Shown here: piece by piece, positions 14,483-31,176 of the stretch
Position numbering within the stretch: position 1 is the first letter of the stretch
Layout of the letters: each line of letters opens with the position of its first letter
Assembly: GCF_003999995.1 (NCBI RefSeq)
Contig: NZ_RJAD01000001.1
Location: 1,550,001-1,614,000 of the forward strand
Source: Microbacterium sulfonylureivorans
GTDB lineage: Bacteria > Actinomycetota > Actinomycetes > Actinomycetales > Microbacteriaceae
Length of the DNA: 64,000 nucleotides
Direction of reading: 5' to 3'
Notes under the pieces: generated by a model
Told to the model about the DNA's origin: nothing
Seen by the model: only the letters and a program-made list of their open reading frames with translations
Database searches by the model: none
Translations under genes and position numbers: made by a program

Positions 14483-14489
14483 GTCCCGG

Positions 14490-14517
14490 CGCCCATGGGT
14501 GAATCTCCCCATGGGCG
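14490..14517 (+). terminator. Hairpin after the UvrA-like gene
   Basis: CGCCCATGGG (14490-14499) pairs perfectly with CCCATGGGCG (14508-14517) around an 8-nt loop, beginning 7 nt after the stop codon. There is no T-run, as is usual in this GC-rich sequence. It separates this gene from the promoter of the giant-protein locus. Confidence 0.6.
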
Positions 14518-14584
14518 TCGGGGCCGGTCCCGGAATACGATCTCCGAGGCGACGCGCGCCGGGGAGGGTGTCCGGGTCGCCGGG

Positions 14585-14590
14585 TTAGGC
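14585..14590 (+). promoter_or_regulatory. -10 box TAGGCT of the giant-protein locus
   Basis: TAGGCT lies about 64 nt before the ATG at 14654 and is the best promoter candidate for the nine-gene locus. The leader holds GGAGGAGG at about 14635-14643, rather far from the start codon, then GAAGGT closer to it. Confidence 0.4.
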
Positions 14591-14653
14591 TGAGACGTCT
14601 TGCCGCTGCGCTCGCCACGCATGCCCCGACCGACGGAGGAGGCCGAAGGTCCG

Positions 14654-17600
14654 ATGAAGTCATTCGCGTGGCTCCGCTCGCGTCCGCGCGCTGTGGCGTC
14701 GGTCAGCGTCCTCACGGCCGCCGCCGTGGCCATCACGACCATGGCCTTCGTCTACGAGGGCAATCCCACGACCGAGGTCGACCTCCATGACGGCGGCGTC
14801 TGGGTGACGAAGCAGTCCGCGCTCCTCGTCGGACACTTCAACCACGAGTCGCAGGTGCTCGACGGGGGTCTGCGCACCACCGGTGGGAAGTACGACATCC
14901 TCCAGTCCGGGGCGGACATCCTCGTCGTCGACGAGACCGACTCGAGCATCACCTCGATCGACCCCGCGATGGTGGCTCTGACCGAGTCGGCCGATGTCCC
15001 CGGTGGCGCGAAGGTCGTGCTCGGCGGGTCCACCGTCGCCATCCTCGACCCGTCGGCGGGCGATCTGTGGGTCGTGCCTGCGGCAGCCGTGGGCTCGTTC
15101 GAGGTCGAAGGCGCCGAGCCGATCGCGACCCTCGGCGAGGGAGCGGATGTCGCGGCCGGCGTCGACGGCACCGTCTACGCCGTCTCGGCGGAGGACGCGG
15201 AGCTCGTGACGATCCGCACCGACGCGGAGGGGTCCCCGGCCGAGCCGTCCCGCTCCGCGGTCGAGGGCCTCGACCCGAAGTCGGCCGTCACGGTCTCCGC
15301 GGTCGGCGACCGTGCCGCCATCCTCGACGCCGACGGCGGCGCGCTGTTCGTCGACGGCCGGCGCACCGAGATCGACGGCGGCCGCACCGCCGTCCTGCAG
15401 CAGCCGTCCGCGCAGAGCGACGCTGTGACCCTGGCGACGGACTCCGCTCTCGTCCGAGTACCCCTCGACGGCTCCGACCCGGTGGTCCAGGCCGCCGGGG
15501 CGCAGGGCGATCCGGCGGCCCCCGTCTTCCTCGAGGGATGCGCGTACGCCGCCTGGAACGGGTCGGCCAAGTTCGTCCGCGACTGCGTCGGCGACGCCGA
15601 CGACCTCGCGACCGATGTCGAGGGCGTCCGGGCCTCGTCCGTGCTCCGCTTCCGCGTCAACCGCGATGTCGTCGTGCTCAACGACATCGTCGGCGGCGCG
15701 GCCTGGATGGCCAGCGACAGCATGCAGCGCGTCGACAACTGGAACGAGATCACCCCGCCCGAGGGTGAGGCCGAAGAGGACGAGCAGACCACCGAGGAGA
15801 CCGTCGAGACGACGCTCCCCGAGCGCTCCGAGGTCAACACCCCGCCGGTCGCCACGAACGACAAGTTCGGAGTGCGTCCCGGCCGCACCACCCTGCTGCC
15901 GGTGCTCGACAACGACAGCGATCCCGACGGCGACGTGCTGATCGCCGCGGTGGCCGACGACGGGCCGTCGTTCGGAGAGGTCTCGACCATCGACGACGGG
16001 GCCGCGCTGCAGGTGTCGGTTCCCGAGGACGCCTCCGGGTCGACCTCGTTCACCTACGAGATCGACGACGGTCGCGGCGGCACCGACACGGCCAAGGTGA
16101 CGCTGAACGTGCACGACTGGAGCGAGAACTCGCCCCCGAAGCAGAAGCGCGTCACGACCGTCGTGGTCGAGGCCGGCGGCGTCGCGTCGTACAACGTGCT
16201 GCCCGACTGGATCGACCCAGACGGCGACGACGTGTTCCTGCTGTCGGTGGCCCCTGCGGAGGGCGACGAGGCCGACTTCACCGCCGACGGACGCATCACC
16301 TACCGGGCCGTCGGCGGCACCCAGGGACGCAAGGACGTGCCGATCGTCGTGTCGGACGGCACAGAGCCGTCATCCGGCACCGTTCGCTTCGATGTGCGGC
16401 CGGTGGGTTCGACCGACCCGGTCACGAACGCCGACCGCGTCGTCGTTCAGGCCGGACAGGTCGCCACGGTGGCGCCGGTGGCCAACGACACCAGCTCCGG
16501 CCGCGAACCGCTTCGGCTCGTCCGGGTCGACGAGGTGCCGGGTGCCACCATCACCCCCGACTTCGCCAACAAGACCTTCGCGTTCGTCTCGGACGTCCCG
16601 GGCGACTACTACGTCCAGTACCTCGTCGCCGCCGGTTCGAAGAACGCCGAGGGGCTGGTCCGCGTCCAGGTGCTCCCCGACAAGGACTCGACGGCGCCCC
16701 CGGTGGCGGTGCGCGACGTCGCGCTGCTGCCGAGCGGCGGCGAGGTGCTCGTCAACGTGCTCGTGAACGATTCGGACCCGGCAGGCGGAATCCTCGTCGT
16801 CCAGTCCGTCACGGTCGAGCCGAACTCCGGCATCTCGGTCGCCGTGATCAACCACGAGACGCTGCGCATCAGCGACCAGGCCGCTCTCGGGGCGCAGGTG
16901 CGGATCACCTATCGCGTGTCCAACGGCTCGAAGTCCGCCGAGGGCGAGGTGATCGTCATCCCGATCCCCGCCCCCACCAAGCTTCAGCCACCCGTCGCGA
17001 ACGACGACCAGATCGTGGTGCGGGCGGGCGACGTCGTGAACATCCCCGTGCTCGACAACGACTACCACCCGAACGGCGACGCGATCCACGTCGCCCCCGA
17101 CCTCGTCGCTCCGCTGGTCGACCCGCAGGACGGCGAGATCTTCGTCTCTCAGGACGTCCTGCGCTTCCGCGCGTCCGATGAGCCGGGCACCGTCTACGCC
17201 ACCTACGAGGTGATCGACAGCACCGGCCAGAAGGACGCCGGGTACGTGACGATCCAGGTGCTCCCCGTCAACGAGGAGACGAACGCCGCACCCCGCCCGC
17301 ACGACATCGTGGCGCGGACGCTCGACGGCAGCCAGGTGCGCATCGCGATCCCGCTCGACGGCATCGACGCCGACGGAGACTCCGTCCGGCTGGAGGGCAT
17401 CGCGTCGCCTCCCGGCAAGGGCCGCGTGGTCGAGGTGGGGTCCAACTACGTCGTGTACGAGGCCTTCGACGGGGTCGGCGGGGTCGACGCGTTCACGTAC
17501 CGCGTGCGCGATCGGCTCGGCGCCGAAGCCACCGGGAGCATCCGCGTCGGCATCGCCCCCGCCGAGAGCGCCAACCAGGCGCCGTACGCCGCGAAGGATG

Positions 17601-20600
17601 CGGTCGTCATGCGCCCGGGCCGCACGGTCGCGGTGCCCGTGCGGGCGAACGACTCCGACCCGGACGGCGATGAGATCGCACTGGTGAGCAGCGGGCTGAT
17701 CGTTCCCGACGTCGACGGGCTCGAGGCGGAGGTCCTCGGCGACCGCGTGATCGTCACCGCGCCGGACGAAGAGGTCGAGACCTCGCTCCAGTACACGATC
17801 CGCGATGCGCGGGGGGCGACGGCGAAGGCGGTGCTGCAGATCACCGTGGCCGACGATGTTCCTCTGCTCCGGCCGATCGCCCGCGACGACTACGTGCGCG
17901 CCGCGGACGTCGACGGCGACAGTGTCGACCTGGAGGTGCTCGTCAACGACGAGGACCCCGACGGAACCGTCGACGACCTCTCGGTGTCGGTCGACGACGC
18001 GTCGGCGCGCGCGCTCTCCGACGGCCGGATCCGCGTGACGCTCGACGACACCGACCGCCTGGTGACGTACAAGATCACCGACCGCGACGGGTTCGAGGCA
18101 TCCGCCTTCATCCACGTCCCCTCGCTCTCGTCGCTGCCGCCCACGCTCATCTCGACCGAGGCGATCGAGGTCAAGAGCGGCGAGACGATCGAGATCCCGC
18201 TCAGCGAGTACGTACAGGCCGCGGGCGATGCACGCGTGGTGATCACCGAGGCGGCCAAGGTCAGCGCCGTCAACGCCGACGGAGCGCCTCTCGTCAAGGA
18301 CCAGACGACGCTCGAGTACACGTCGAAGAAGGGCTACTTCGGTCAGGACGCGCTCACTTTCGAGGTCACCGACGGCACCGGCCCCGATGACCCGAAGGGC
18401 CGGAAGGCGACGCTCACGCTCCCGATCACCGTGCTCCCGCCCGACAACCAGCAGCCCGAGTTCACCGACGGCTCGGTGGAGGTCGCGCCCGGCGAGGACC
18501 CGACCTCGCTCGACCTGCGCGCGCTCACCACCGACCCCGACCCCGAAGACCTCGACGGCATGCGCTACGAGATCGTCGGAGGCGCGCCCGACGGGCTGTC
18601 GGCGTCGATCGACAGTCAGGACCTGCGCGTCGGCGCCGATTCCGCGACGCCGAAGGGCACGATCGAGCGACTGACCGTCCGGGTGTCGGACGGCGAGACC
18701 GACCCCGTCGAGGGCACTGTCACGGTGCGCGTGACCGCGTCGACGCGTGAGCTCGCGACGGCCAACGACGACATCGTCGACGAGGCCCACCAGGGCGACA
18801 CCGTGTCCGTGCCGGTGCTGGGCAACGACGTCAACCCGTTCCCCGAGACGCCATTGAAGATCATCGACGTCCAGACCGAGACGGGCGACGGCGCCTCGGA
18901 GATCGCCGGCGACGAGGTGCGCGTCACCCCGGACGCCGACTTCTTCGGGACCATGGTCGTGCGCTACCGCGTGGAGGATGCCACCGGAGACCCCGACCGG
19001 CAGGTCGAAGGCCGGATCCGTCTGACCGTGCAGGGCAGGCCCGATGCTCCGGGCACGCCGAGCGTGTCGAGCGTGCAGGACCGCACGGTGGTGCTGTCGT
19101 GGACGCCTCCCGCGAACAACGGCGCCGAGATCACGCACTACGAGGTGTCGTCGACGGCTGGCACGTACACGAAGGAGTGCGCGTCGACGACGTGCACCCT
19201 CGACGGCCTGACGAACAACGTCGAGTACAACTTCGTCGTAATAGCCGTCAACCGCGTCGGCTCGTCCGACCCCTCGGCCGCGTCGCCGCCCGCACGTCCC
19301 GACGCGCGCCCCGATACGCCGCAGCCGCCGGCGCTCGTCTTCGGCGACCAGAGTCTCACCGTGTCGTGGGTGACGCCGACGACCCCGGGTTCGCCCGTCG
19401 AGAAGTTCACACTCGAGATCTCGCCGGCCCCGCCGTCGGGCATCGTGCAGAAGAGCGAGCTCACGGGCAACTCCGTCGTGTGGGACGGCCTCGAGAACGG
19501 CGTGGCCTACCAGGTGCGCGTACGGGCGCACAACCGCGCGCCCGACCCCTCGAGCTGGAGCGGGTGGTCGGCTTCCGAGATCCCCGCGCGGGCACCGGAT
19601 GCCGCAGCCGCCCCGACCACGGAGCGCCTCGACCCCGTCGGCGCCCAGGCGCAGATGCGCGTGTCGTGGAGCGCTCCCGCCAACAACGGCGATGCCATCG
19701 CCGAGTACCGCCTGAACGTGATCCGCGGCGGCGCGGTGGTGAACACGATTGCCGGCATCCCCGGCGGCCAGACGTCGCAGGCTCTCGCGATCGACGCCTC
19801 GACGACGGACTACACCTTCACCGTCGCGGCCCGCAACAAGGCGGGCTGGGGCGCCGACAGCGCGCCGTCCGCACCGCGCCGGGCCTTCACGCCGCCGGGA
19901 GCGCCGACGAACGTCCAGGCCTCGACGCCCAGCGGCGACAGCGCCATCGTGGTGACCTACGACCCGGCGCCGGGCAACGGCGCGAACGCCAGCGAACTCG
20001 GGTACGAGTACTCGCTCAACGGCGGCGGCTGGCAGGCGAACTGGGACGGCCGCACGATCGGCGGCCTGAACAACGGCACCGACTACACGGTCCGCGTCCG
20101 CGCGTACACGGCCCTGGACGGCGTCCGCTACGACGGTGCCGAGTCGGCGCCGTCGGGCGTCGCACGACCCTACGGTCCGGTGCGCAACCCGACGGTGACG
20201 GCGGCGCGCAGCGGGGACGGGCGCGACATCACGTTCACCTGGCGGGCTCCCGATCCGAACGGCCGCGCCATCTCGCAGATGCAGATCCGCATCGACGGCG
20301 GCAACTGGCAGAACGTGAACAACAACGGGTCACGCGACAACCGGTACGGCTACAGCGAGACCCACAGGATCGAGGCTCGCGCGCAGGATGCCGCGGGCCA
20401 GTGGTCCAACGTCGTGGCGGACCAGGCGACCACGGTCGCGGCGCCCGTGCCGAAAGCCGTGACCGGCAAGGGGCAGTCCGGGGACTGGCCCGGCGAGTGC
20501 ACGACGTACTCCTGCGCCTACATGAAGGTGACCGTGTCGGACTTCCCGGCGGGCAACTACGTCATGCGGTGCAATGACGACGCCTCGGGGACGTGGGGCA

Positions 20601-20725
20601 CCAGAACGTACGCGGTGCCGGAGAACGGCACGGTGCAGCTCACGTGCTACTACGGCAACCCCGGCCGCAAGGCGTGGGTGTCGATCGACGGCTGGGGTGC
20701 CGCCGATCCGATCACCTGGTACTAG
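14654..20725 (+). CDS. Giant membrane-anchored surface protein with Ig-like and fibronectin III repeats
   Basis: Predicted 2023-residue protein. A basic N-terminus and one hydrophobic segment (about residues 15-34) act as signal anchor; the rest would be extracellular. Residues about 40-390 look like a repeat fold of beta-propeller type, followed by an acidic Thr/Glu linker. From about 396 to 1455 there are roughly eleven Ig/cadherin-like (Big_9/VCBS-like) repeats marked by N-D-x-F...VLDNDSDPDGD motifs that suggest calcium binding. Residues about 1460-1920 are five fibronectin III domains (VVLSWTPPANNGAEITHYEV). A C-terminal domain of about 90 residues has four Cys (GECTTYSC, MRCND, LTCYYG). 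There is no LPXTG motif. It is first in the locus, 39 nt before moxR. Probably an adhesin or wall-associated scaffold. Confidence 0.85.
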   Translation: MKSFAWLRSRPRAVASVSVLTAAAVAITTMAFVYEGNPTTEVDLHDGGVWVTKQSALLVGHFNHESQVLDGGLRTTGGKYDILQSGADILVVDETDSSITSIDPAMVALTESADVPGGAKVVLGGSTVAILDPSAGDLWVVPAAAVGSFEVEGAEPIATLGEGADVAAGVDGTVYAVSAEDAELVTIRTDAEGSPAEPSRSAVEGLDPKSAVTVSAVGDRAAILDADGGALFVDGRRTEIDGGRTAVLQQPSAQSDAVTLATDSALVRVPLDGSDPVVQAAGAQGDPAAPVFLEGCAYAAWNGSAKFVRDCVGDADDLATDVEGVRASSVLRFRVNRDVVVLNDIVGGAAWMASDSMQRVDNWNEITPPEGEAEEDEQTTEETVETTLPERSEVNTPPVATNDKFGVRPGRTTLLPVLDNDSDPDGDVLIAAVADDGPSFGEVSTIDDGAALQVSVPEDASGSTSFTYEIDDGRGGTDTAKVTLNVHDWSENSPPKQKRVTTVVVEAGGVASYNVLPDWIDPDGDDVFLLSVAPAEGDEADFTADGRITYRAVGGTQGRKDVPIVVSDGTEPSSGTVRFDVRPVGSTDPVTNADRVVVQAGQVATVAPVANDTSSGREPLRLVRVDEVPGATITPDFANKTFAFVSDVPGDYYVQYLVAAGSKNAEGLVRVQVLPDKDSTAPPVAVRDVALLPSGGEVLVNVLVNDSDPAGGILVVQSVTVEPNSGISVAVINHETLRISDQAALGAQVRITYRVSNGSKSAEGEVIVIPIPAPTKLQPPVANDDQIVVRAGDVVNIPVLDNDYHPNGDAIHVAPDLVAPLVDPQDGEIFVSQDVLRFRASDEPGTVYATYEVIDSTGQKDAGYVTIQVLPVNEETNAAPRPHDIVARTLDGSQVRIAIPLDGIDADGDSVRLEGIASPPGKGRVVEVGSNYVVYEAFDGVGGVDAFTYRVRDRLGAEATGSIRVGIAPAESANQAPYAAKDAVVMRPGRTVAVPVRANDSDPDGDEIALVSSGLIVPDVDGLEAEVLGDRVIVTAPDEEVETSLQYTIRDARGATAKAVLQITVADDVPLLRPIARDDYVRAADVDGDSVDLEVLVNDEDPDGTVDDLSVSVDDASARALSDGRIRVTLDDTDRLVTYKITDRDGFEASAFIHVPSLSSLPPTLISTEAIEVKSGETIEIPLSEYVQAAGDARVVITEAAKVSAVNADGAPLVKDQTTLEYTSKKGYFGQDALTFEVTDGTGPDDPKGRKATLTLPITVLPPDNQQPEFTDGSVEVAPGEDPTSLDLRALTTDPDPEDLDGMRYEIVGGAPDGLSASIDSQDLRVGADSATPKGTIERLTVRVSDGETDPVEGTVTVRVTASTRELATANDDIVDEAHQGDTVSVPVLGNDVNPFPETPLKIIDVQTETGDGASEIAGDEVRVTPDADFFGTMVVRYRVEDATGDPDRQVEGRIRLTVQGRPDAPGTPSVSSVQDRTVVLSWTPPANNGAEITHYEVSSTAGTYTKECASTTCTLDGLTNNVEYNFVVIAVNRVGSSDPSAASPPARPDARPDTPQPPALVFGDQSLTVSWVTPTTPGSPVEKFTLEISPAPPSGIVQKSELTGNSVVWDGLENGVAYQVRVRAHNRAPDPSSWSGWSASEIPARAPDAAAAPTTERLDPVGAQAQMRVSWSAPANNGDAIAEYRLNVIRGGAVVNTIAGIPGGQTSQALAIDASTTDYTFTVAARNKAGWGADSAPSAPRRAFTPPGAPTNVQASTPSGDSAIVVTYDPAPGNGANASELGYEYSLNGGGWQANWDGRTIGGLNNGTDYTVRVRAYTALDGVRYDGAESAPSGVARPYGPVRNPTVTAARSGDGRDITFTWRAPDPNGRAISQMQIRIDGGNWQNVNNNGSRDNRYGYSETHRIEARAQDAAGQWSNVVADQATTVAAPVPKAVTGKGQSGDWPGECTTYSCAYMKVTVSDFPAGNYVMRCNDDASGTWGTRTYAVPENGTVQLTCYYGNPGRKAWVSIDGWGAADPITWY

Positions 20726-20764
20726 CGGCCAGACGATGAGAACGAGAACGGACAGGACGACACG

Positions 20765-21736
20765 ATGACCATGACCCCCGAACAGGCCGCCTGGTTCCAG
20801 GGGACCTTCGCCCGGCTCGTCGACAACGTCGACCGCGCGCTCCTCGGCAAGCGCGAGGTGGTCGGCCTGGCGCTCAGCGCGATGCTCGCCGAGGGTCACG
20901 TGCTCCTCGAAGACGCCCCGGGCACCGGCAAGACGAGCCTCGCCAAGGCGCTCGCCGCGACAGTGCAGGGCACGAGCAGCCGCATCCAGTTCACCCCCGA
21001 CCTGCTGCCCTCCGACGTGACCGGCGTGACGATCTACGACCAGACCTCGCACCGATTCGAGTTCCACAAGGGTCCGGTGTTCGCGTCGATCGTCCTCGCG
21101 GACGAGATCAACCGCGCCTCGCCGAAGACGCAGTCGGCGCTCCTCGAGGTGATGGAGGAGTCCCGTGTCACGGTCGACGGCGTCACGCACGAGGCGGGCC
21201 GTCCGTTCCTCGTGATCGCGACGCAGAACCCGATCGAGCAGGCCGGCACCTACAAGCTCCCCGAGGCGCAGCTCGACCGCTTCCTCATCCGCACGTCGAT
21301 CGGCTACCCCGACCTCGCGGCCGCCGAGCGCATCCTCGCCGGGGCGGCCGACCGCAACCCGTCGGCGAGCCTGTCCGCGATCATCACGACGGGAGCCGTC
21401 GCCGACATGGCCGACCTGGCCTCGACGGTGCACGTCGAGGCAGCGGTGCTGCGCTACACGGCGCAGCTCGCCGAGGCGACCCGAGCGGATGCCGCGACCC
21501 GCCTGGGGGTGTCGGTCCGAGGCTCGCTCGCCATGATCCGCATCGCGAAGGTCTGGGCTGCGGCGCAGGGCCGTCACTTCGTCACTCCCGACGACATCAA
21601 GGCGCTCGCCGCGGCGGTGTGGACGCACCGTTTGGTGCTCGACCCCGAGGCCGAGTTCGCCGGAACGTCCGCCGAGACCGTGATCTCGCGCGTGATGGAG
21701 GACGTCGCAGCGCCGCAGGCGAGGTCCGCGGCCTGA
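20765..21736 (+). CDS. MoxR family AAA+ ATPase
   Basis: Predicted 323-residue cytoplasmic AAA+ ATPase. Walker A is EDAPGTGKTSLAKALA (about 48-63) and Walker B VLADEINRASPKTQSALLE; ATQNPIEQAGTYKLPEAQLD is the MoxR sensor-1 hallmark. MoxR ATPases act as chaperones for the maturation or insertion of partner proteins and are usually encoded with a DUF58 and a transglutaminase-like protein, exactly as here. The stop overlaps the next start (TGATG at 21734-21738). Two in-frame ATGs occur at 20765 and 20771; the first is used. Confidence 0.93.
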   Translation: MTMTPEQAAWFQGTFARLVDNVDRALLGKREVVGLALSAMLAEGHVLLEDAPGTGKTSLAKALAATVQGTSSRIQFTPDLLPSDVTGVTIYDQTSHRFEFHKGPVFASIVLADEINRASPKTQSALLEVMEESRVTVDGVTHEAGRPFLVIATQNPIEQAGTYKLPEAQLDRFLIRTSIGYPDLAAAERILAGAADRNPSASLSAIITTGAVADMADLASTVHVEAAVLRYTAQLAEATRADAATRLGVSVRGSLAMIRIAKVWAAAQGRHFVTPDDIKALAAAVWTHRLVLDPEAEFAGTSAETVISRVMEDVAAPQARSAA

Positions 21737-22983
21737 TGACGACGGAAGCACTCGGCTCGGCGGTCCGCTCGCAGGACCGCCGGGAGTGGTGGGGCGAGAT
21801 CGCCGCCCGCGTCGCGCGACGGCTGCGCGGCGTGCTCGGCGTCGTCCGCCCTGCCGCCTGGGTGCTGATCGCCGGTGCAGCGGTGCTGTGGATCGCGGGG
21901 CCTTCGCTCGGCTGGTGGGAGCTCACCGTCGCCGCGGTCGTCCTCACCGTGCTTCTCGCGCTGTGCGCGCTGTTCCTCATCGGCCGGACCGCCTACGACG
22001 TGACCCTCGACCTCACGCGCACCCGCGTCATCGTGGGGGAGCGGGCGGTCGGGGCGCTGACGCTGTCGAACTCCGGAGGTCGCGCCATCCTCCCGTCCCG
22101 CGTGGTGCTGCCGGTCGGCGCCGGGCGCGGCGAGTTCGAGGTGAACCGCCTCGCCCCGGGTGCGTCGGCCGAGGAGCTCTTCGCCATCCCGACGACACGG
22201 CGGGCGGTCGTCGCCGTCGGTCCGGTGAGCGTCGTGCGCGGCGACCCCCTCGGGCTGTTCGAGCGCGTGCACCGCAAGGACGAGCCGGTCGACCTCTTCG
22301 TCCACCCGCGCACGGTGCGCTTCGACGGGCAGTCGCTCGGCTTCCTCCGCGACCTGGAGGGGCTCCCGGCCACCGATCTGTCGCGCGACGACGTGTCGTT
22401 CCACGCCCTGCGCGAGTACCAGCCGGGCGACGACCTGCGCCACGTGCACTGGAAGTCGACGGCCCGCACCGGAACCGTGATGGTCCGCCAGTACGAGGAG
22501 ACACGCCGATCGCACTTCGTGATCGGCCTGTCGACGCATCCGGGCGAGTACCGCGACGACGAGGAGTTCGAGCTCGCGGTGTCGGCGGCCGGGTCGCTGG
22601 GCCTGCGCGCCCTGCGCGACTCGCAGCGGGTCGAGGTGCGGGTGCAGGAGCGCGCGCTGCCGTCGGGCACCGGCAAGCAGTTCCTCGACTCGCTGTCGGG
22701 GGTCGTGCACTCGCGGCCCCGCGCCGGCGGTGTCGTCGACCTCGCCGGCAACGTGGCGGCGACCCTGCCCCTGGCGAGCGTGGTCGTGCTGGTGTGCGGC
22801 AGCGGCGTCGACGCCAACAGCCTCCGCGCGGCCTGCGCGCGACTGCCCTTCGGGGCCCGCACCCTCGCGGTCGTGGCCGAGGCGGGGTCGACCCCGGCGC
22901 TGCGCCGGATCGGCGACGCGGACGTCGTGACCGTCGGCTCGCTCGAGCAGCTTCCCGCGGCGCTGCGGAAGGTGCTCTCGTGA
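21736..22983 (+). CDS. DUF58 domain membrane protein
   Basis: Predicted 415-residue protein with two adjacent membrane segments (about residues 38-76) and a large cytoplasmic part containing the DUF58 core EYQPGDDLRHVHWKSTART (about 230-248), the family signature. DUF58 proteins are partners of MoxR ATPases and have a von Willebrand A-like fold; their exact role is not established. It overlaps moxR by 1 nt and the next gene by 4 nt, so the three are translationally coupled. Confidence 0.9.
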   Translation: MTTEALGSAVRSQDRREWWGEIAARVARRLRGVLGVVRPAAWVLIAGAAVLWIAGPSLGWWELTVAAVVLTVLLALCALFLIGRTAYDVTLDLTRTRVIVGERAVGALTLSNSGGRAILPSRVVLPVGAGRGEFEVNRLAPGASAEELFAIPTTRRAVVAVGPVSVVRGDPLGLFERVHRKDEPVDLFVHPRTVRFDGQSLGFLRDLEGLPATDLSRDDVSFHALREYQPGDDLRHVHWKSTARTGTVMVRQYEETRRSHFVIGLSTHPGEYRDDEEFELAVSAAGSLGLRALRDSQRVEVRVQERALPSGTGKQFLDSLSGVVHSRPRAGGVVDLAGNVAATLPLASVVVLVCGSGVDANSLRAACARLPFGARTLAVVAEAGSTPALRRIGDADVVTVGSLEQLPAALRKVLS

Positions 22984-25364
22984 CCGCCCGAGCGATGCTC
23001 CCGACGCGGCGGTGGGTGCTCGATCTCAGCGCCGTCGCCGCCCTCCTCGCCGTGCCGCTCATCGGCTTCTGGCCCACATTCGGCGGACCGACCTACCTGC
23101 CCGCCGCCGTCGGCGGCGCGCTGATCGGCGTGGGGCTCGCCGCTCTGTGCACGTGGCTTCGCTGGGGCATCCTCCCCCTCGCGGGGCTCACCCTGCTGAC
23201 GTACTTCGTCTTCGGCGGAGCGCTCGCCCTCCCACACACGACGGTGCTCGGCGTCGTGCCCACCCTCGACACCCTGCGACAGCTGGGCCTCGGGATCGTG
23301 ACGTCATGGAAGCAGCTGCTCACGACCGTGGCGCCGGTCGCGGCATCCGACGGCCATCTCGTCGTGCCGTTCCTCCTGGCCCTCGTCGCCGCGGTGCTGA
23401 CGACGTCGTTCGCGCTGCGTCTGCATTCGCCGGCGTGGGCGCTGCTCCCCGCCGGGGCGTTCCTCGGCGTGCAGATCGCACTCGGCACCTCGCAGCCTGC
23501 GGCGCCGGTCGTGCAGGGCGTCGTGTTCGCGCTCGTCGCCACCGTGTGGCTCGCCGTGCGTCAGAGCTGGGAGCACGGCACCGGTGCGGTCCCGCTCGGT
23601 GAGGACGCTGTCCCGGTGCGCGGTGTGGCGGCGCGCCGGCTGCTCCTCGGCGGTGCCGTGGTGGTGGTGGCGACGCTCATCGGTGTGGCCACGAGCGCGC
23701 TGGCCGCGCCGCAGAGTCCGCGATACGTGCTGCGCGACGTCGTGATCCCGCCGTTCGACGTGCGTGAGTACCCGAGCCCGATGCAGTCCTTCCGGGCGTT
23801 CGTGCGCGACTTCCCCGACGAGCCGCTGTTCACCGTCTCCGGCATGCCCAAGGAGGCGCGCGTGCGCCTCGCCACGATGGACGCGTACGACGGCACCGTG
23901 TACAACGTGTCGGACGACGGCGCCGGCACCTCGAGCGCGTTCAGCCCGGTGCGCGGCAACATGTCGGCCGACGCCGAGGGCACGCCCGCGACGGTGCGCG
24001 TCGAGGTCGCCGCCCTGGACGGGGTCTGGATGCCCGAGGTCGGCGCCGTGCGCACCATCGCGTTCGACGGCGATCGGGCCGACGATCTGCGGCGCTCGGC
24101 CTACTACAACGAGGGCACCGAGACGGCCGTCGTCACCCAGCAGCTGGGTGCGGGCGACGCGTACACGCTCGAGACCGTCGTCCCGGGGTCGCCGAGCGAC
24201 GACGCGCTCGCCGACGACGACTTCGCTCCGGTGTCGCTCCCCGACCAGCACGGCGTGCCGCAGGACTTCGCCGAGATCGCCTCGGAGGCCGTCGCCGAGG
24301 CGACGACGCCGGTCGAGCAGGTGCGGGCGCTGCAGACGATGCTCGCCGAGGGCGGGTTCTTCAGCCACGGGCTCGAGGGCGAGGTGCTCTCGCGCGCAGG
24401 GCACGGCGCCGAGCGCATCTCGACGCTGCTCGGATCGGATCAGATGGTCGGCGACGACGAGCAGTACGCCACCGCCATGGCGCTCCTCGCCCGCGAGATC
24501 GGCATCCCGGCGCGGGTGGTCATGGGGTTCTATCCCGAGGAGGATGCCTCGGGCGACCCGGTGTTCACGGCGACCGGCGACACGCTCCACGCGTGGGTCG
24601 AGGTGGCGTTCGAGGATCACGGCTGGGTGACCTTCGACCCGACGCCGCCCGAGGACCAGGTGCCGAACGACCAGACGACGAAGCCGCGGGCCGACCCCAA
24701 GCCGCAGGTGCTGCAGCCGCCGCCTCCGCCGCAGGAGCCGGTCGATCTGCCGCCGACGGTGCCCGACGATCGCGAGTCCGAGGACGAGAGCGGGTTCGAT
24801 GCCGCCCTCCTCGCGCTGATCGCGGCGATCGGGGTCGGCGTGCTCGGACTCCTGGCCCTGCTCGCGGCGCCCTTCGTCGTGATCGGCGCCCTCAAGGCGG
24901 CCCGCCGCCGCCGTCGCCGCGAGGCGGAGCGCGCGGCCGACCGCATCAGCGGCGGGTGGGACGAGCTCGTCGATCGCGCCACCGACTACGGCACTGCGGT
25001 CCGCCCCGGCGGCACGCGTGCGGAGGACGCCGGCGCGGTCGGCACGGCGTTCGCCGAGCCGCGTGTGGTCACGCTCGCGGCGCGGGCGGATCTCGAGGTC
25101 TTCGGCCCCGCCGATCCCACCCCCGAGGACGTCGCGGAGTTCTGGCGCCAGGTCGACGACATCGTCGGCGACATGGGCGAAGGACGCTCGGTGTGGAACC
25201 GCGTGACCGCCCGCCTCAACGTGCGGTCGCTCCTCGCCGGGACCAGGTTCGCGCTCCCCGCCCGGGCGCCGAGAGAGCCGCGGGCCGCCCGCGCGCCGCG
25301 CGAGCGCGGTGAGAAGTCGTCCAGTCGGGCACCCGAGCCCCACGCCCCCCAGGAGAGCGAATGA
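22980..25364 (+). CDS. Multi-TM transglutaminase-like protein with catalytic Cys replaced
   Basis: Predicted 794-residue protein of TgpA-like layout: six or seven membrane segments in the first 240 residues, an extracytoplasmic stretch, a transglutaminase-like domain (about 440-565), a Pro-rich linker, a further membrane segment (about 610-632) and a basic cytoplasmic tail. In the core, GDDEQYATAMALLAREIGIP (491-510) corresponds to the family GDCEQYA segment, so the nucleophile Cys is Asp493. The His (TLHAWVEV, His537) and Asp (WVTFDPTPP, Asp553) of the triad are kept. The protein is probably not a transglutaminase or Cys protease; it may bind peptides or wall material. The GTG start overlaps the DUF58 stop, and the stop overlaps the RDD-FHA start. 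Confidence 0.88.
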   Translation: MTARAMLPTRRWVLDLSAVAALLAVPLIGFWPTFGGPTYLPAAVGGALIGVGLAALCTWLRWGILPLAGLTLLTYFVFGGALALPHTTVLGVVPTLDTLRQLGLGIVTSWKQLLTTVAPVAASDGHLVVPFLLALVAAVLTTSFALRLHSPAWALLPAGAFLGVQIALGTSQPAAPVVQGVVFALVATVWLAVRQSWEHGTGAVPLGEDAVPVRGVAARRLLLGGAVVVVATLIGVATSALAAPQSPRYVLRDVVIPPFDVREYPSPMQSFRAFVRDFPDEPLFTVSGMPKEARVRLATMDAYDGTVYNVSDDGAGTSSAFSPVRGNMSADAEGTPATVRVEVAALDGVWMPEVGAVRTIAFDGDRADDLRRSAYYNEGTETAVVTQQLGAGDAYTLETVVPGSPSDDALADDDFAPVSLPDQHGVPQDFAEIASEAVAEATTPVEQVRALQTMLAEGGFFSHGLEGEVLSRAGHGAERISTLLGSDQMVGDDEQYATAMALLAREIGIPARVVMGFYPEEDASGDPVFTATGDTLHAWVEVAFEDHGWVTFDPTPPEDQVPNDQTTKPRADPKPQVLQPPPPPQEPVDLPPTVPDDRESEDESGFDAALLALIAAIGVGVLGLLALLAAPFVVIGALKAARRRRRREAERAADRISGGWDELVDRATDYGTAVRPGGTRAEDAGAVGTAFAEPRVVTLAARADLEVFGPADPTPEDVAEFWRQVDDIVGDMGEGRSVWNRVTARLNVRSLLAGTRFALPARAPREPRAARAPRERGEKSSSRAPEPHAPQESE

Positions 25365-26611
25365 CCACGAGCCCACCCCTCGCCGCCGTGTCGGCGTCGA
25401 TCGGCAGGCGCGCGGGCGCCTGCGCGATCGATCTCGCCGTCGCGTACGGCGTCGGCGTCGCCTTCGCCGGAGTCGCCGTCGGCGTCGCCCTCGCGATGGG
25501 CGCGGCCGCCGCTCCGCGCACCTTCGGCCTGGCGCTCGCCCTCGCCCTGGTCGCGGCCTGGGCGGGGATGCTCGCCTGGGCCGTCGTCTGCACGGCGATG
25601 CAGGGCGGTCGGGGCTCGGTCGGACAGCGCGCGCTCGACCTGCGGCTCCTCGACTCGGCCGCGCCGGTCGTGGTCGGATTCTGGCGCGCCCTCTGGCGCA
25701 ATGTGGTGTGGGTGCTGTCGTGCGCGATCTTCGTGGGCTGGTTCACGCCGCTCTTCGACGCGACCCCGCGCCGCCAGGGCTGGCACGACAGCGCCGGAGG
25801 GGCGATCGTCGTCGACATGCGCGGGACGGATGCCTCGCCCCGTGCGTCAGCGCGCCCCGCCCTGGCCGCGCCGCCGACCGCCGCGGCGTCGCCCGCCCTC
25901 GAGCCACACCCGTGGTTCCTCGCCCCGCCGGCCCACGCGGCTCCGGCACATGCGGCGCTGCCTCCGGCCCCGCTTCGCCCGGTCCACACCCCCCCGTCAC
26001 CGGCGCACGCCGTGCCCGCCCCGGCGCCGTCGATCGCCGCGCCCGCGCCGTCCCGCGTGTTCACCTCCGCTCCGGCCCACGCGGCGCCGGCACATGCGGC
26101 GCCGGCTCACACAGCACCGTCCGCGGTCGCCGTGGCCCCAGCATCCGCTCCACCTGCGGTGCTGATCCCGCAGGTGCCCGGTCCTGCCACGCGACCCATC
26201 GCGACGACCGTCGGCCGTGTCGACCAGCCCCGGACCGCGGCGATCGCGCCGCCGCCGGCGCAGCGCGCGGCCCTGTTCGACGACGCGCCCGTCATCGCGG
26301 TGCTCACCTGGGACGACGGCACGCGCATGGCCGTGTACGGACGCACGCGGTACGGCCGCAACCCCGCGGTCGAGCCGGGGATCGTGAGCGTGCCGGTTCG
26401 CGACGAGACGCTGTCGCTGTCGAAGACGCACTTCGAGATCGGAGGCGACGCGTCGGGCGCGTGGGTCGCCGACCGGCACTCCACGAACGGCACCGTGCTC
26501 GTGCGCGACGGCGGACGGCATCCGCTCACCGCCGGAGTTCCGACGCTCCTCCGGGCAGGCGACCGCCTCGAGCTCGGCGACCGGACCGCGATCATCGGCA
26601 CCGGATCATGA
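25361..26611 (+). CDS. RDD-domain membrane protein with C-terminal FHA domain
   Basis: Predicted 416-residue protein. Residues 10-145 are an RDD domain with three hydrophobic segments and the RRAGACAIDLAVAYG and GRGSVGQRALDLRLLD motifs. A Pro/Ala/His-rich linker of about 130 residues follows (APAHAAPAHAAP-type repeats). Residues about 305-416 are an FHA domain with the canonical phosphothreonine-binding residues: YGRTRYGRNP, LSKTHFEI and DRHSTNGTVL. It would tether a phosphopeptide-binding module to the membrane and is probably read by the kinase encoded further down. ATGA overlaps join it to both neighbours. Confidence 0.88.
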   Translation: MTTSPPLAAVSASIGRRAGACAIDLAVAYGVGVAFAGVAVGVALAMGAAAAPRTFGLALALALVAAWAGMLAWAVVCTAMQGGRGSVGQRALDLRLLDSAAPVVVGFWRALWRNVVWVLSCAIFVGWFTPLFDATPRRQGWHDSAGGAIVVDMRGTDASPRASARPALAAPPTAAASPALEPHPWFLAPPAHAAPAHAALPPAPLRPVHTPPSPAHAVPAPAPSIAAPAPSRVFTSAPAHAAPAHAAPAHTAPSAVAVAPASAPPAVLIPQVPGPATRPIATTVGRVDQPRTAAIAPPPAQRAALFDDAPVIAVLTWDDGTRMAVYGRTRYGRNPAVEPGIVSVPVRDETLSLSKTHFEIGGDASGAWVADRHSTNGTVLVRDGGRHPLTAGVPTLLRAGDRLELGDRTAIIGTGS

Positions 26612-27441
26612 CCGCGCCGATGACGGTGGCGTTCGGGTCGGCGACCGATCCGGGTCTTCGTCGTCGAATCAATGAGGACTCGTACATCGCGGCGCCGCCG
26701 CTGTTCCTCGTCGCCGACGGCATGGGCGGTCACCACGCGGGCGAGATCGCCAGTGCGACCGTGATCGATGAGTTCGCAGGCTTCGCCGGTCGCGCGAGCC
26801 TCGGAATCGACGACGTGCGCGCCGCGCTTGCGCGGGCACGTCGTCGCGTGGAGGGCCTCCCTCCCGGCGAGGGCGCGGGAGCCGGCACCACGCTCACCGG
26901 CGTGGTGATCGCAGACGTCGACGGCGAGGGCTACTGGCTCGCCATCAACCTCGGCGACTCGCGCACGTACCGCCTGAGCGAGGGGCACCTCGAGCAGATC
27001 AGCGTCGACCACTCGGTCGTCCAGGAGCTCATCGACGCCGGTCAGCTCGACCCCGATGCCGCCGCGCGCGACACGCGTCGCAACGTCATCACGCGTGCGA
27101 TCGGCGCCGGCAGCGACGCCGACGCCGACTACTGGCTCATCCCCGCCGAGGCCGGCGACCGCATCCTGGTGTGCTCGGACGGCCTCTCGACCGAGCTCGA
27201 CGGCGAGGCGATCCACGCGATCCTCGTGGCCGAGACGCACCCCCAGTCGGCCGCCACGCGCCTCGTCCACGAAGCCATGCTCCGGGGCGGACGCGATAAC
27301 ATCACGGCGCTGGTGGTCGATGCGACGGCGGTCCGCTCGCGCGCGAGCCGTCCCGGCGACCACACGGCGCCGTCGGCGATCGTCGCGGACGAGATCGACG
27401 GAGACACGCTTCCCCGCGTCGTCGCCGCAGGAGGGTACTGA
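26608..27441 (+). CDS. PP2C-type serine/threonine protein phosphatase
   Basis: Predicted 277-residue soluble phosphatase of the PPM/PP2C family. The metal-binding motifs are present in order: RRRINEDSY (about 19-27), FLVADGMGGHHAGE (about 32-45), INLGDSRTYRL and the late LVCSDGLSTE and GGRDNITALVV. It would reverse phosphorylation by the Ser/Thr kinase of the same operon. There are 4-nt and 1-nt overlaps with the neighbouring genes. Confidence 0.93.
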   Translation: MTAPMTVAFGSATDPGLRRRINEDSYIAAPPLFLVADGMGGHHAGEIASATVIDEFAGFAGRASLGIDDVRAALARARRRVEGLPPGEGAGAGTTLTGVVIADVDGEGYWLAINLGDSRTYRLSEGHLEQISVDHSVVQELIDAGQLDPDAAARDTRRNVITRAIGAGSDADADYWLIPAEAGDRILVCSDGLSTELDGEAIHAILVAETHPQSAATRLVHEAMLRGGRDNITALVVDATAVRSRASRPGDHTAPSAIVADEIDGDTLPRVVAAGGY

Positions 27442-28826
27442 TGTCCGTCCACTATTCGCCGGGCGCGCACCCCGTCGCGGTCACCCCGCACGGGATCGTG
27501 GTGCTGGCGGAAGACACGTCGCCCGCTCTCGCGGCGCGCATCCACGCGCTCGTGGCGGATGGCCGTGGTCTGGGAGGCGTGCTCGAGGCGCTCACCGGCG
27601 CGTACGGCACGTCGCTGTCCGCGGTGCCGCCGTTCGCCGTCGCGCTGGCCGAACGAGGCTCGGTGCGCCTGGCCGTGCGCGGCGGGTTCGCGCTGGACGT
27701 CGACGCGCCCACTCCCGAGCACGTCTCCGGCGAGGGCGTCACCACGTGGACCGAGCGGGTGATCGCCGAGGCATCGCGGGTCTCACTCGTGGGCGAAGCG
27801 GATGCCGCGCCCGCCGAGTTCCCCGTGGCCGACGGCGTCGTGCTCGCCGCCGGTCTGGTGTGGGTTCCGGGCGCGACCCGGGCGGCTCTCGCCGAGCGCG
27901 CGGCCGACGTGGTCGTGAGCCCGGTCCACGCGAGGGCCGAGCCTGCGAAGCCCGAGCCTGCGAAGCCCGAGCCTGCGAAGCCCGCGCCCGCGGAGCCCGA
28001 GCCCGCGAAGGCCGAGCCTGCGAAGCCCGACGACGTGGGGCCCGATGTCGCCGCGCTCCGCGCCGAGCCCGCCGTGGACCCCGATCCCGCACCCGAGCCG
28101 CCGGCGAAGGCAGCCGCCGCCTCACCCGGCCGTGGCCGCGAGGCCTTCGTGCCGGGAGCGTCGGCCGTGGCATCCGTCCCCTCCCCGGCGCCAGCCGACA
28201 CGGCGACGCCGATCACGACGACACCCGGGCTCATCGACTCGGCGGCCGTGATGTCGCTCGCCGACACGCTCCTGCCGGCCGACTCGACCATGACATCGCA
28301 GCCCGATGCAGATGCGCCCGTGCCCGCGCCGGATCCGGCACTCGAGGCCACGATCGTCCGCGGAGACGAGCCTGCCGCGATCGTGCAGGGAGATCACGAC
28401 GGCGAGACGATCTCGCTGGCCGAGGCCCGCGCGCAGCGCAACGGCGACTCGGCGCCCCCGCCTCTCGCCCCGCCTCGCCCACCCGCTCCCGGGCGGATCC
28501 GCGTCTCCACCGGTCAGGTGATGACGCTCGACCGCACGGTCGTCATCGGCCGCCGGCCGCGGTCGACGCGCGTGTCGGGCACCGACCTGCCGCATCTCGT
28601 CGCGGTCGACAGCCCGCAGCAGGACATCTCGCGCAGCCATGTGGAGCTGCGCGTCGAGGGCGACAGCATCCTGGCCACCGACCTGCATACGACCAACGGC
28701 ACGACCCTCCTCCGCCCCGGCGTCGATCCGATGCGCCTGCACCCGGGCGAGGGCACCGTCGTCGTGCCCGGTGACGTCATCGATCTCGGCGACGGCATCA
28801 CTGTGGCGATCGAGGATCTCCCGTGA
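27441..28826 (+). CDS. FHA domain protein with Pro-Ala-Lys-Glu repeat linker
   Basis: Predicted 461-residue protein without clear membrane segments. Residues 1-150 are a globular domain I do not recognise. A low-complexity linker (about 155-340) contains EPAKP repeats. Residues about 355-461 are an FHA domain with all the binding residues (VVIGRRPR, DISRSHVELRV, DLHTTNGTTLL). It is probably an adaptor that binds Thr-phosphorylated partners, with the operon kinase as the likely writer. It is joined to the PP2C gene by TGATG and to the kinase gene by GTGA. Confidence 0.85.
   Translation: MSVHYSPGAHPVAVTPHGIVVLAEDTSPALAARIHALVADGRGLGGVLEALTGAYGTSLSAVPPFAVALAERGSVRLAVRGGFALDVDAPTPEHVSGEGVTTWTERVIAEASRVSLVGEADAAPAEFPVADGVVLAAGLVWVPGATRAALAERAADVVVSPVHARAEPAKPEPAKPEPAKPAPAEPEPAKAEPAKPDDVGPDVAALRAEPAVDPDPAPEPPAKAAAASPGRGREAFVPGASAVASVPSPAPADTATPITTTPGLIDSAAVMSLADTLLPADSTMTSQPDADAPVPAPDPALEATIVRGDEPAAIVQGDHDGETISLAEARAQRNGDSAPPPLAPPRPPAPGRIRVSTGQVMTLDRTVVIGRRPRSTRVSGTDLPHLVAVDSPQQDISRSHVELRVEGDSILATDLHTTNGTTLLRPGVDPMRLHPGEGTVVVPGDVIDLGDGITVAIEDLP
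27939..28028 (+). repeat. Six tandem 15-bp units inside the FHA gene
   Basis: Four units of GAGCCTGCGAAGCCC and two variants (27984-28013) run head to tail in frame and encode EPAKP repeats. The unit length is a multiple of three, so slippage would change linker length without breaking the frame. Confidence 0.85.
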
Positions 28827-30454
28827 GTTCCAAGCGCGCGCCCATGGCGCCGCCGGACCTGCCCGGCTTCACCTACGTCGACGTGCTGGGCTCGGGCGGC
28901 TTCGCCGACGTGTACCTCTACGAGCAGGCGCTGCCCAAGCGCCGGGTGGCCGTGAAGGTGCTGCTCACCGAGCGGATGTCGAGCGGGTCGGTCAGCGAGT
29001 TCACCGCCGAGGCGAACGTCATGGCCATGCTCTCGACGCACCCCGCGATCGTCACGATCTACCAGGCGGGCGTCGCCCGTGACGGCCGGCCGTATCTCGT
29101 GATGGAGTACTGCCCCAAGCCCAACCTGCAGGTGCGGTACCGGCGGGAGCCGTTCTCGATCGCCGAGTCACTTCGCGTCGGCGTGCAGGTGGCGGCCGCC
29201 GTCGAGACCGCTCACCGTGCCGGTGTGCTCCATCGCGACATCAAGCCGGCGAACATCCTCGTCACCGAGTACAACCGCCCTGCGCTCACCGACTTCGGGA
29301 TCGCGTCGACCACGAGCGCGGCCGCCGAGTCGGCGGGCCTGTCGATCCCATGGTCGCCGCCGGAGTCGTTCGCCGACGTGCCGCGGAGCGATCCGCAGTC
29401 GGACGTGTACGCCCTTGCCGCGACGGTCTACACGCTGCTCGCAGGACGTTCGCCCTTCGAGCTGCCGGGCCAGCGCAACACGGCGGCGGAGCTGATCCAG
29501 CGGATCGAGACGATGCCGCTCCCGCCGCTCGGCCGCGCCGATGTGCCCGCGTCGCTCGAGCATGCGCTCGGGCGTGCGATGGCCAAGTCCTCCGTCGACC
29601 GCTACGACTCCGCGATCGCGTTCGCCCGGGCGCTGCAGAAGGTGCAGATCGAGCTGTCGCATTCGGTCACGCCGATCGACATCCTCGACGACGGCATCGC
29701 CGACGACGCTGTGGAGGACGAGGACGAGGGCCTCACGCGCGTCCGCGGCGTCGTGAGCATCTCGCCGCAGACGACGCCGGCCGCGGGCCGCACCCGCCCG
29801 TCGGCGGCCACGACTCCGAGCGCCGCCCGGGTGCCCGTCGCGCCGCCCGTGTACGAGCCCGCCGATTCCCAGACAGTCATCCGCGCCTCGGCATCACCGG
29901 CGGCGGCGGAGACCCGCCGCCGGGCGCCCGTCGAGGTGGCGGCCGCCGTGGACGAGACCGTGGCCCGGGCCCCGGCATCCGTCTTCACCCAGCCCCCCGT
30001 CGCCCCCGTCCCGGCTCCCGCGACCACCGCCTCCGCGACGCGATCGCGCCGGGGCCTGTGGATCGGGCTCGGCGCCGGCGGACTGGTGCTCCTCCTCGCG
30101 GTGGTCGTGGGCGTCTCGCTCCCCGGCCTGCTCGGCGGAGGGACGCAGCCGACGCCGGTCACGTCCTCCGACCCGCAGGATCCGATCTCCGCGGTCGTCC
30201 CCGAGCCCGAGGACGTCACCGGCACGGTCGTCACAGGCGGCGTCGCCTTCACCTGGACCAACCCCGAACCGCGCGACGGCGACCGGTATCTCGTCGGCGT
30301 CGTCACGCGTCCCGACGAGGAGCCCGAGTTCGAGCCGATCACGGCCACCGAGGCCACGGTGCCCGCCGACCCGTCGGGCACCACGTGCATCGACGTGCTG
30401 CTCGTCCGCGAGAACGGGCAGTCCTCCGATCCGGTGAGAGGATGCGTGCCATGA
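28823..30454 (+). CDS. Membrane Ser/Thr protein kinase (PknB-like)
   Basis: Predicted 543-residue receptor-type kinase. The kinase domain occupies residues about 14-275: LGSGGFADVYL glycine loop, VAVKVLL lysine, HRDIKPANIL catalytic loop, DFG, and WSPPESF in place of the usual APE. An acidic and then Ala/Pro-rich juxtamembrane region of about 130 residues rich in Thr follows. One membrane segment (about 411-435) leads to an extracellular part of about 100 residues that looks like one FNIII-like beta domain with two Cys. There are no PASTA repeats. Likely substrates are the membrane and FHA proteins of the same operon; this is inference. GTG start overlapping the FHA gene. Confidence 0.93.
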   Translation: MSSKRAPMAPPDLPGFTYVDVLGSGGFADVYLYEQALPKRRVAVKVLLTERMSSGSVSEFTAEANVMAMLSTHPAIVTIYQAGVARDGRPYLVMEYCPKPNLQVRYRREPFSIAESLRVGVQVAAAVETAHRAGVLHRDIKPANILVTEYNRPALTDFGIASTTSAAAESAGLSIPWSPPESFADVPRSDPQSDVYALAATVYTLLAGRSPFELPGQRNTAAELIQRIETMPLPPLGRADVPASLEHALGRAMAKSSVDRYDSAIAFARALQKVQIELSHSVTPIDILDDGIADDAVEDEDEGLTRVRGVVSISPQTTPAAGRTRPSAATTPSAARVPVAPPVYEPADSQTVIRASASPAAAETRRRAPVEVAAAVDETVARAPASVFTQPPVAPVPAPATTASATRSRRGLWIGLGAGGLVLLLAVVVGVSLPGLLGGGTQPTPVTSSDPQDPISAVVPEPEDVTGTVVTGGVAFTWTNPEPRDGDRYLVGVVTRPDEEPEFEPITATEATVPADPSGTTCIDVLLVRENGQSSDPVRGCVP

Positions 30455-31176
30455 CCGCCCGTGCGGCCGACGAGCTGACGATCGAATTCGCCGGCGAGGC
30501 CTTCACGGTCGAACCCGACGCCGTGTTCACGGTCGGTCGCGAAGGCGACCTCGCGATCGACGACAACCTCTTCCTGCATCGCCACTTCCTGACCATCGAG
30601 AACATCGACGGTCTCTGGCTGCTCTCGAACGTCGGCAGCCGGCTGTCGGCCACGGTCACCGACGCCGGCGGGCGCGTGCAGGCCTGGCTCGCGCCCGGCG
30701 CCCGGCTCCCGCTCGTGTTCGCGGCGACGGCCGTGATCTTCAGCGCGGGGCCGACGACGTACGAGCTCACCATCAACGTGTCCGAGCCGGCGTTCCGCGA
30801 GACCCAGACGTTCGGCGACGACGACGGACTGAGCACGATCGGCGACGTCCCGCTGACGCACAGCCAGCGCGTGATGATCCTCGCCCTCGCCGAGCCGGTG
30901 ATCCGGCGCGAAGGCACCGGCATGAGCGAGCTGCCGACCTCGGCCCAGGCGGCCGAGCGCCTCGGCTGGACGCTGACACGCTTCAACCGCAAGCTCGACA
31001 ACGTGTGCGACAAGCTCGACCGCATCGGGGTGCCGGGCCTGCGCGGTGGGGTGAGCTCCTACGCCACCAATCGCCGGGTGCGCCTGGTCGAGCACGCGAT
31101 CGCGGCACGGCTGGTCACGCGTGACGACCTGCCGCTGCTCGACCAGGAGCGCAACGCCAGCCTCGAAGAGGACTGA
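30451..31176 (+). CDS. FHA-like and helix-turn-helix protein, last gene of the locus
   Basis: Predicted 241-residue soluble protein. Residues about 8-110 have the length and strand pattern of an FHA domain (FTVGREGDLAIDDNLFLHRH), but the usual Ser and Asn of the binding loop are missing, so phosphothreonine binding is doubtful. Residues about 135-205 are helical and resemble a sigma-region-4 or winged HTH (TSAQAAERLGWTLTRFNRKL). It may carry a phosphorylation signal to transcription, or only bind kinase partners. It starts inside the kinase stop (ATGA) and converges on the recombinase-like gene with an 11-nt gap and no visible terminator. Confidence 0.75.
   Translation: MTARAADELTIEFAGEAFTVEPDAVFTVGREGDLAIDDNLFLHRHFLTIENIDGLWLLSNVGSRLSATVTDAGGRVQAWLAPGARLPLVFAATAVIFSAGPTTYELTINVSEPAFRETQTFGDDDGLSTIGDVPLTHSQRVMILALAEPVIRREGTGMSELPTSAQAAERLGWTLTRFNRKLDNVCDKLDRIGVPGLRGGVSSYATNRRVRLVEHAIAARLVTRDDLPLLDQERNASLEED

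Follow-up and report, generated by a model that had tools for sequence, protein, structure and literature searches.

A nine-gene surface-protein and phospho-signalling cluster of Microbacterium sulfonylureivorans as a relative of the bifidobacterial PFNA operon within a wider actinobacterial system

The window analysed here, a 64,000-nucleotide stretch of Microbacterium sulfonylureivorans DNA (contig NZ_RJAD01000001.1, positions 1,550,001 to 1,614,000), contains nine genes on one strand (14654-31176) that encode a giant surface protein, a MoxR-type ATPase, a DUF58 protein, a membrane protein with a transglutaminase (TGase) fold and a set of Ser/Thr phospho-signalling proteins. We propose, with a probability of roughly 55%, that this locus is a member of an ancient actinobacterial system in which the PFNA operon of Bifidobacterium represents one branch, and that the system is a phospho-regulated surface fibre that is independent of animal hosts. 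A frame check, in which all starts, stops and frames were verified, bore out the first-pass annotation's description of nine co-directional, overlapping genes; seven of the eight junctions are overlaps of 1 or 4 nucleotides (nt) and the remaining one is the 39-nt gap before moxR. The genes, lettered A to I, are listed below (TM, transmembrane).

Gene A, 14654-20725, + strand: giant surface protein of 2023 residues; Big_9, cadherin-like and four fn3 stretches (Pfam); counterpart of bifidobacterial FN3.
Gene B, 20765-21736, + strand: MoxR-type AAA+ ATPase; AAA_3, Walker A and B intact.
Gene C, 21736-22983, + strand: DUF58 protein; two N-terminal TM segments and a third hydrophobic stretch within the domain.
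Gene D, 22980-25364, + strand: TgpA-like membrane protein, TGase fold without the catalytic Cys; motif GDDEQYA.
Gene E, 25361-26611, + strand: RDD membrane domain with a C-terminal FHA domain; phosphothreonine-pocket residues intact.
Gene F, 26608-27441, + strand: PP2C Ser/Thr phosphatase; metal-binding Asp residues intact.
Gene G, 27441-28826, + strand: protein with a C-terminal FHA domain (Pfam, residue check).
Gene H, 28823-30454, + strand: membrane Ser/Thr kinase with an ectodomain of about 90 residues, counterpart of Pkb2 (Pkinase, TM scan).
Gene I, 30451-31176, + strand: FHA domain (residues 4-112) followed by a helical C-terminal domain, possibly a helix-turn-helix.

The association of these genes was followed in other genomes, where all fetched loci were annotated with profiles built from the window-type set. 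Among the window-type relatives (L004-L014), genes A, B, C, D, F, G, H and I occur in the window order in all eleven, and the RDD-FHA gene E was detected in ten. The giant, MoxR, DUF58 and TGase genes are linked in 40 of the 40 further genera of the family that were examined, and in 39 of these the kinase and PP2C genes lie beside them on the same strand. These 40 loci represent one per genus, taken by best TGase match from the 76 of 85 family genera with a match; together with nine other genera they cover 49 of the 76. The other 27, some with weak matches and some with matches as strong as those taken, were not fetched, and thus the figure of 40 speaks for the genera examined rather than for all genera. 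The kinase/FHA/PP2C half and the MoxR half, which the first-pass annotation regarded as two modules fused into one operon, do indeed form a conserved unit, and the lack of synteny in relatives that would have spoken against this reading was not seen; the joining, however, is not special to this locus, and the kinship with PFNA had been missed. In the fortieth genus (L078) the kinase domain is located upstream, with a frame break. An apparent kinase-giant fusion at this locus was considered as proof of contact and rejected; within the kinase gene (14395-16039) the ectodomain and the catalytic part are in different frames, and the structure is thus read as a frameshift (or an assembly error).

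Stretches from other families of the order, which were hand-picked for spread and strength and hence yield no rate, display either the order of the window or a permutation of it. When the TGase-like protein served as query, a match was obtained in 133 of 150 genomes at family level, 147 of 197 at class level and 163 of 198 at order level, plain MoxR-DUF58-TGase trios being counted as well. The 17 family genomes without a match are all 0.9-1.8 Mb in size, although several genomes of such size do match, a pattern in keeping with loss in numerous small genomes. Within the genus, six of seven genomes (G106, G284, G294, G314, G493 and G507) contain a strong window-type TGase match. In a sample of 246 genomes from across the phylum, 14 matched the profile of the giant's N-terminus; nine of the 14 lie outside the class, most of them with weak matches. 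A TGase gene follows the giant match at 4-7.5 kb, on the same contig and strand as in the window, in five of the seven genomes checked; four (G647, G714, G612 and G622) lie outside the class and are known from coordinates only, while in G238, inside the class, a TGase follows but the frame is just 786 residues long. No TGase was located on the same contig and strand 4-7.5 kb after the match to the giant's N-terminus in G552 and G627.

PFNA denotes pkb2-fn3-aaa-atp-duf58-tgm, to which some species add prpC, a hypothetical gene and fha, and its literature, as represented by the passages considered here, is small and comes chiefly from one group. In B. longum GT15 the genes of the operon are reported to be co-transcribed and Pkb2 to phosphorylate the operon's MoxR, and MoxR has been suggested to fold FN3; the same study names TGM as transglutaminase-like and presumably a cysteine protease, and calls the cluster unique to bifidobacteria (PMC8430577). 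Elsewhere PFNA is stated to be 'found only in bifidobacteria', with FN3 domains possibly of eukaryote origin (PMC10688814). That MoxR, DUF58 and transglutaminase genes are frequently neighbours has been reported (PMC6803598), and a mycobacterial review remarks that a moxR operon resembles PFNA (PMC12067865); apart from this remark, the passages of the literature considered contain no description of the system outside Bifidobacterium.

The five core genes of PFNA (kinase, fn3 giant, AAA-ATPase, DUF58 and tgm), together with PP2C and FHA genes, are also present on one strand in the window, which shares with PFNA a homologous N-terminus of the giant, kinase ectodomain, DUF58 protein and Cys-less TGase; the published length of the B. 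longum giant is 1994 residues, against 2023 here. In Bifidobacterium the kinase gene comes first, whereas in the window it is the eighth and the phospho-signalling genes are downstream; the window in addition contains the RDD-FHA and FHA-helical genes, and its giant has four fn3 stretches compared with two in B. longum. As both the order and the taxonomic range differ, the locus is not a PFNA operon as strictly defined in print. Used as a query against named genomes, the family f42 locus L085 proved to be that of Bifidobacterium criceti, the next matches being B. italicum, B. choerinum and B. pseudolongum. These loci read kinase, giant, MoxR, DUF58, TGase, PP2C, and the models that score the window also score the Bifidobacterium loci L121-L124. 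Thus homology with the window is demonstrated on named genomes, and the existence of homologues outside Bifidobacterium contradicts the published restriction of the system to that group (PMC10688814).

The modules have shifted relative to each other while staying together. The gene orders seen in the further genera are FGHI-ABCD(E) and close variants, GF-H-ABCDE, F-H-ABCDE, GF-E-H-ABCD and H-ABCD-FG(I)E, such that the phospho-signalling genes lie upstream or downstream of ABCD, or are split around it, with linkage kept. In a FastTree phylogeny of concatenated MoxR, DUF58 and TGase sequences from 132 loci (L118, L100, L081, L024 and L126 were left out, having no separate B and C matches beside D), 14 trios that bear the catalytic Cys are set apart with a support of 1.0, and 111 of the remaining loci form one clade (0.998). 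This clade contains an eight-locus Bifidobacteriaceae clade (1.0) in which three named Bifidobacterium loci are found, while the window order defines a single clade of 28 loci with nine family codes (0.984). The order with the kinase first and the phosphatase last is shared by Bifidobacterium, family f46 and two loci from the window's own family. Trees of single genes (without L020, L023, L025, L026, the trios and rows under the score limit) point the same way: those of the kinase and the giant recover three clades of the concatenated tree exactly (Bifidobacteriaceae, U1 and U2), and the window clade is reproduced exactly by FHA protein G, with one row off by the kinase and with five added rows by the giant. 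Mapping of orders on the tree, with L120 (a 5.7-kb contig) set to unknown, gave a minimum of eight order changes, which is not exact, since L023 scores as 'module downstream' only because its tandem cluster sits where the contig begins. On contig 1 of the M. sulfonylureivorans genome itself (about 1968.6-1984 kb) lies another cluster of the system, L003, in which the kinase comes first; it groups with the f46 loci on the tree and was possibly acquired.

Protein D belongs to the TGase fold family (Transglut_core, 1.6e-19; TgpA_N, 1.8e-12; Pfam), and its profile matches the TgpA structure of Pseudomonas aeruginosa (PDB 6g49) at 5e-11. The position of what we take to be the catalytic Cys of TgpA is occupied by Asp in protein D, the assignment of the aligned Cys as catalytic being based on the family (Pfam, PDB 6g49) and on work on TgpA. 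Among 112 giant-linked TGase rows, Bifidobacterium included (B. criceti is counted twice, as L085 and L121, and L161 is not included), none has Cys at this position, where Asp (43), Ala (21), Glu (20), Gln (15), Ser (10) and Gly (3) are found, while the motif G-D/N-x-E-Q-Y/F is present in 109. His and Asp are both retained in 21 of the 112, the window among them, and both are lost in many, such as Bifidobacterium, which has Thr and Tyr. Of 26 TGase rows without a linked giant, the 14 that bear Cys are all plain MoxR-DUF58-TGase trios. The M. sulfonylureivorans genome also holds one of these (L001); such trios consist of the same three families in the same order as B-C-D, but keep the catalytic Cys (GYC), in contrast to protein D, and no giant or kinase was detected beside them. 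The 12 Cys-less unlinked rows comprise L096, L024, L120 and L038, which are in or adjoin the 111-locus clade and whose giant is cut off or weakly scored, L114, L125, L126 and L129 (GYAEQ or GYSEQ), and L130, L132, L138 and L144 (GTSEQ or GTTEQ), three of the last four having a weak giant match. Thus loss of the Cys is universal among the giant-linked loci examined, yet is not limited to them. It is probable, judging from these sequences, that protein D is a binding protein rather than an enzyme. The tail of the TGase contains a conserved Thr that was weighed as a possible phosphosite and then discounted, since Thr at such a place may cap a helix. An apparent TGase-FHA fusion in L075 was not taken as proof of contact, as its open frame is probably a product of chance in a GC-rich stretch.

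The giant has a short N-terminal end and a single TM segment (residues 14-32), followed by a base that structure prediction suggests is probably a beta-propeller. From the propeller to the stop its length is near-constant (1996-2083 residues across 26 loci), while its last 116 residues form a variable tip, with a mean pairwise identity of 0.14-0.21 compared with 0.30-0.54 in the other parts. A profile search of PDB with the N-terminus returned nothing convincing, the one match (7e-4) being to a flagellin-hook-motif protein. Extra giant-like fragments occur just 5' of the giant gene in L115 (9-1007), L005 (19124-19900) and L094 (8-547), in the first of which the window-type tip domain is present once more; they are either a second giant gene cut by the end of the stretch or spare tip cassettes. 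Tandem double clusters, giving two giants per genome, are found in the family at L020, L023-L024 and L025-L026, and in L081 (9440-16021; f42, Bifidobacteriaceae group) the giant and MoxR share one open frame, which is either a real fusion or a sequence error.

The kinase Lys, HRD and DFG, the PP2C metal ligands, the FHA Arg/Ser/His/Asn and the MoxR Walker motifs are conserved in nearly all matches; in this check the E and G rows overlap, as either model picks up the other FHA domain as well, and matches outside the system are counted. The kinase ectodomain is conserved as far as Bifidobacterium. Protein I matches no Pfam or NCBIfam model; its N-terminal domain has the FHA fold, its mean column identity is 63% over 20 loci, and its C-terminal part comprises five helices, with weak LuxR-type matches only, that are perhaps DNA-binding. 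Searching PDB with its profile gave nothing convincing (best E 0.08, an unrelated dehydrogenase). Compared with EmbR, the FHA transcription regulator of M. tuberculosis (PDB 2fez/2ff4), protein I differs in that its FHA domain is N-terminal, and kinship of its helical part to the EmbR DNA-binding domain is not established.

Several observations weigh against the proposed system, or against its indivisibility. MoxR was not found in the fetched stretches of L118 (from the window's genus), L100 and L161, all of which have the giant, DUF58, TGase and kinase genes, and neither PP2C nor FHA genes were found in those of L118 and L161, which reach just about 1.5-2 kb 5' of the giant. The smallest gene set seen is thus A-C-D-H, and the MoxR, PP2C and FHA parts may be dispensable; such loci argue against an indispensable MoxR unless another MoxR in the genome serves, and the L161 genome does have a second cluster with MoxR (L099). 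Ten loci of the 111-locus clade lacked a called kinase; extension of the stretches located an adjoining kinase in nine (G227, G292, G331, G034, G241, G197, G349, G445 and contig 9 of G194), and L025 is the second of two tandem clusters, the kinase lying before the first. In G341 (L132, outside the clade) extension found no kinase. The kinase and the giant are divergent in four f30 loci (G227, G292, G331 and G194), indicating that a single transcript is not obligatory. One same-genus genome (G333) has no strong window-type TGase match, the PP2C tree adds four rows to the window clade at a support of 0.10, and in the tree of protein I the U1 clade is retrieved whereas the window clade is not. 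The propeller model, built from five sequences, has a mean predicted local distance difference test score of 57, with the first 106 residues below 50, and the kinase ectodomain resembles fn3 only weakly (hhalign gives it a probability of 7-37% with three fn3 profiles, where fn3 against fn3 scores 99.7 or more). Finally, the protein contacts, the binding of DNA by protein I and the exposure of the giant at the surface are ones that we infer.

If the locus does encode a phospho-regulated fibre, the giant would be anchored in the membrane through its N-terminal TM segment, its propeller forming the base, and would project across the wall as a variable-tipped fibre whose length is nearly constant. 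The extracellular, inactive TGase domain would no longer cross-link, but may dock peptides, probably those of the giant, while DUF58 and MoxR, on the inner side, would remodel the membrane complex. The kinase could sense the state of this complex through its ectodomain and phosphorylate MoxR and the partners of the FHA clients, PP2C would reset the phosphorylation, and the FHA-helical protein I might relay the signal to transcription. The fibre would then serve as an adhesin or a sensor of contact, equipped with machinery for its own assembly and for reporting its status, and would not depend on animal hosts. That phosphorylation gates the handling of the giant, the switch that the first-pass annotation envisaged, is plausible and has already been proposed for PFNA. 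The active-site residues of the kinase, PP2C, FHA and MoxR proteins are intact, although the MoxR-less loci indicate that the ATPase is perhaps not required everywhere. Phosphorylation of MoxR by the operon's kinase is already in print for B. longum (PMC8430577). The earlier interpretation as a whole is thus partly supported; the breadth of the system, the permutation of its modules, the Cys-less TGase and the anatomy of the giant and of the ninth protein are new as far as these searches go. We advance more tentatively, as an idea that may well prove wrong, a fuller version, general to actinobacteria, in which a fibre with a propeller base, near-constant length and an exchangeable tip is loaded or tensioned through the membrane by MoxR-DUF58, by way of an enzyme fold turned binding platform, its state is reported by a relay of membrane kinase, PP2C and FHA proteins to a dedicated FHA transcription factor, and immune sensing in bifidobacteria is a late specialisation.

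It could be argued that the cluster is instead a sensor of envelope integrity or peptidoglycan, in which the kinase and FHA proteins control wall synthesis in the manner of PknB and FhaA, and the giant and the MoxR trio are targets or bystanders. The kinase, PP2C and FHA set has the same make-up as wall-control systems, and the best NCBIfam match of kinase H is the PASTA kinase model. This match, however, is far under the cut-off (171.9 against 450 bits) and covers residues 20-281, the kinase domain only; no PASTA ectodomain was found by the Pfam scan, ftsW and pbp are absent among the nine genes, and the giant, DUF58, TGase and kinase co-occur even where MoxR was not found. We regard such a sensor as possible but unlikely. 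It is improbable that the locus is a conflict system of the MoxR-vWA type, with the giant or its tip as effector and the kinase and FHA proteins setting the threshold. The tip is variable, and MoxR passes the bpMoxR cut-off of Pfam (41.5 against 27 bits); its best Pfam model, however, is AAA_3 (209.7 bits), and its P-loop is GTGKT rather than the GXXXTAKS that is often found in the systems described (PMC7159879). Furthermore, DUF58 is the sole Pfam domain of protein C, the probable propeller being on the giant and not on a vWA partner, and the Pfam scan revealed no effector domain in the giant. Very improbable as the basic function is the role published for bifidobacteria, a host-immune communication operon whose giant binds cytokines and whose kinase senses the host. 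In its favour, the published accounts report TNF-alpha binding by an FN3 fragment, induction by TNF-alpha and adhesion. The same system is nonetheless present in Microbacterium, in 40 further genera, in several families and, by coordinates, outside the class, and Bifidobacterium is one branch of the tree; given this spread, host binding would be a derived use. That two independent envelope modules are adjacent by chance is scarcely credible and already disfavoured, for while plain trios exist without giant or kinase and four f30 loci are divergent, the two halves stay adjacent, however the genes are ordered, in all 40 of the 40 genera examined, and the clades of the giant are mirrored by the kinase tree.

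The flanking genes look unrelated, and thus 14654-31176 bounds the unit well. On the 5' side, a UvrA-like ABC ATPase gene on the same strand (12128-14482) shows no sign of belonging to it; on the 3' side the opposite strand carries a possible gene that matches a resolvase marginally, together with genes for a Na/H exchanger and a dehydrogenase of the lactate/malate type. A scan of the locus for promoters and terminators was empty.

This study places a cluster deemed unique to bifidobacteria, and viewed as a channel to the host immune system, in an actinobacterial setting that is broader, is probably far older and takes in Microbacterium, which suggests that the basic job of the system is not communication with the human host. 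Its basic function is thereby open to study in ordinary laboratory strains. The assumed 'microbial transglutaminase' enzyme of the operon, moreover, becomes a probable binding protein, which poses a clean experimental question.

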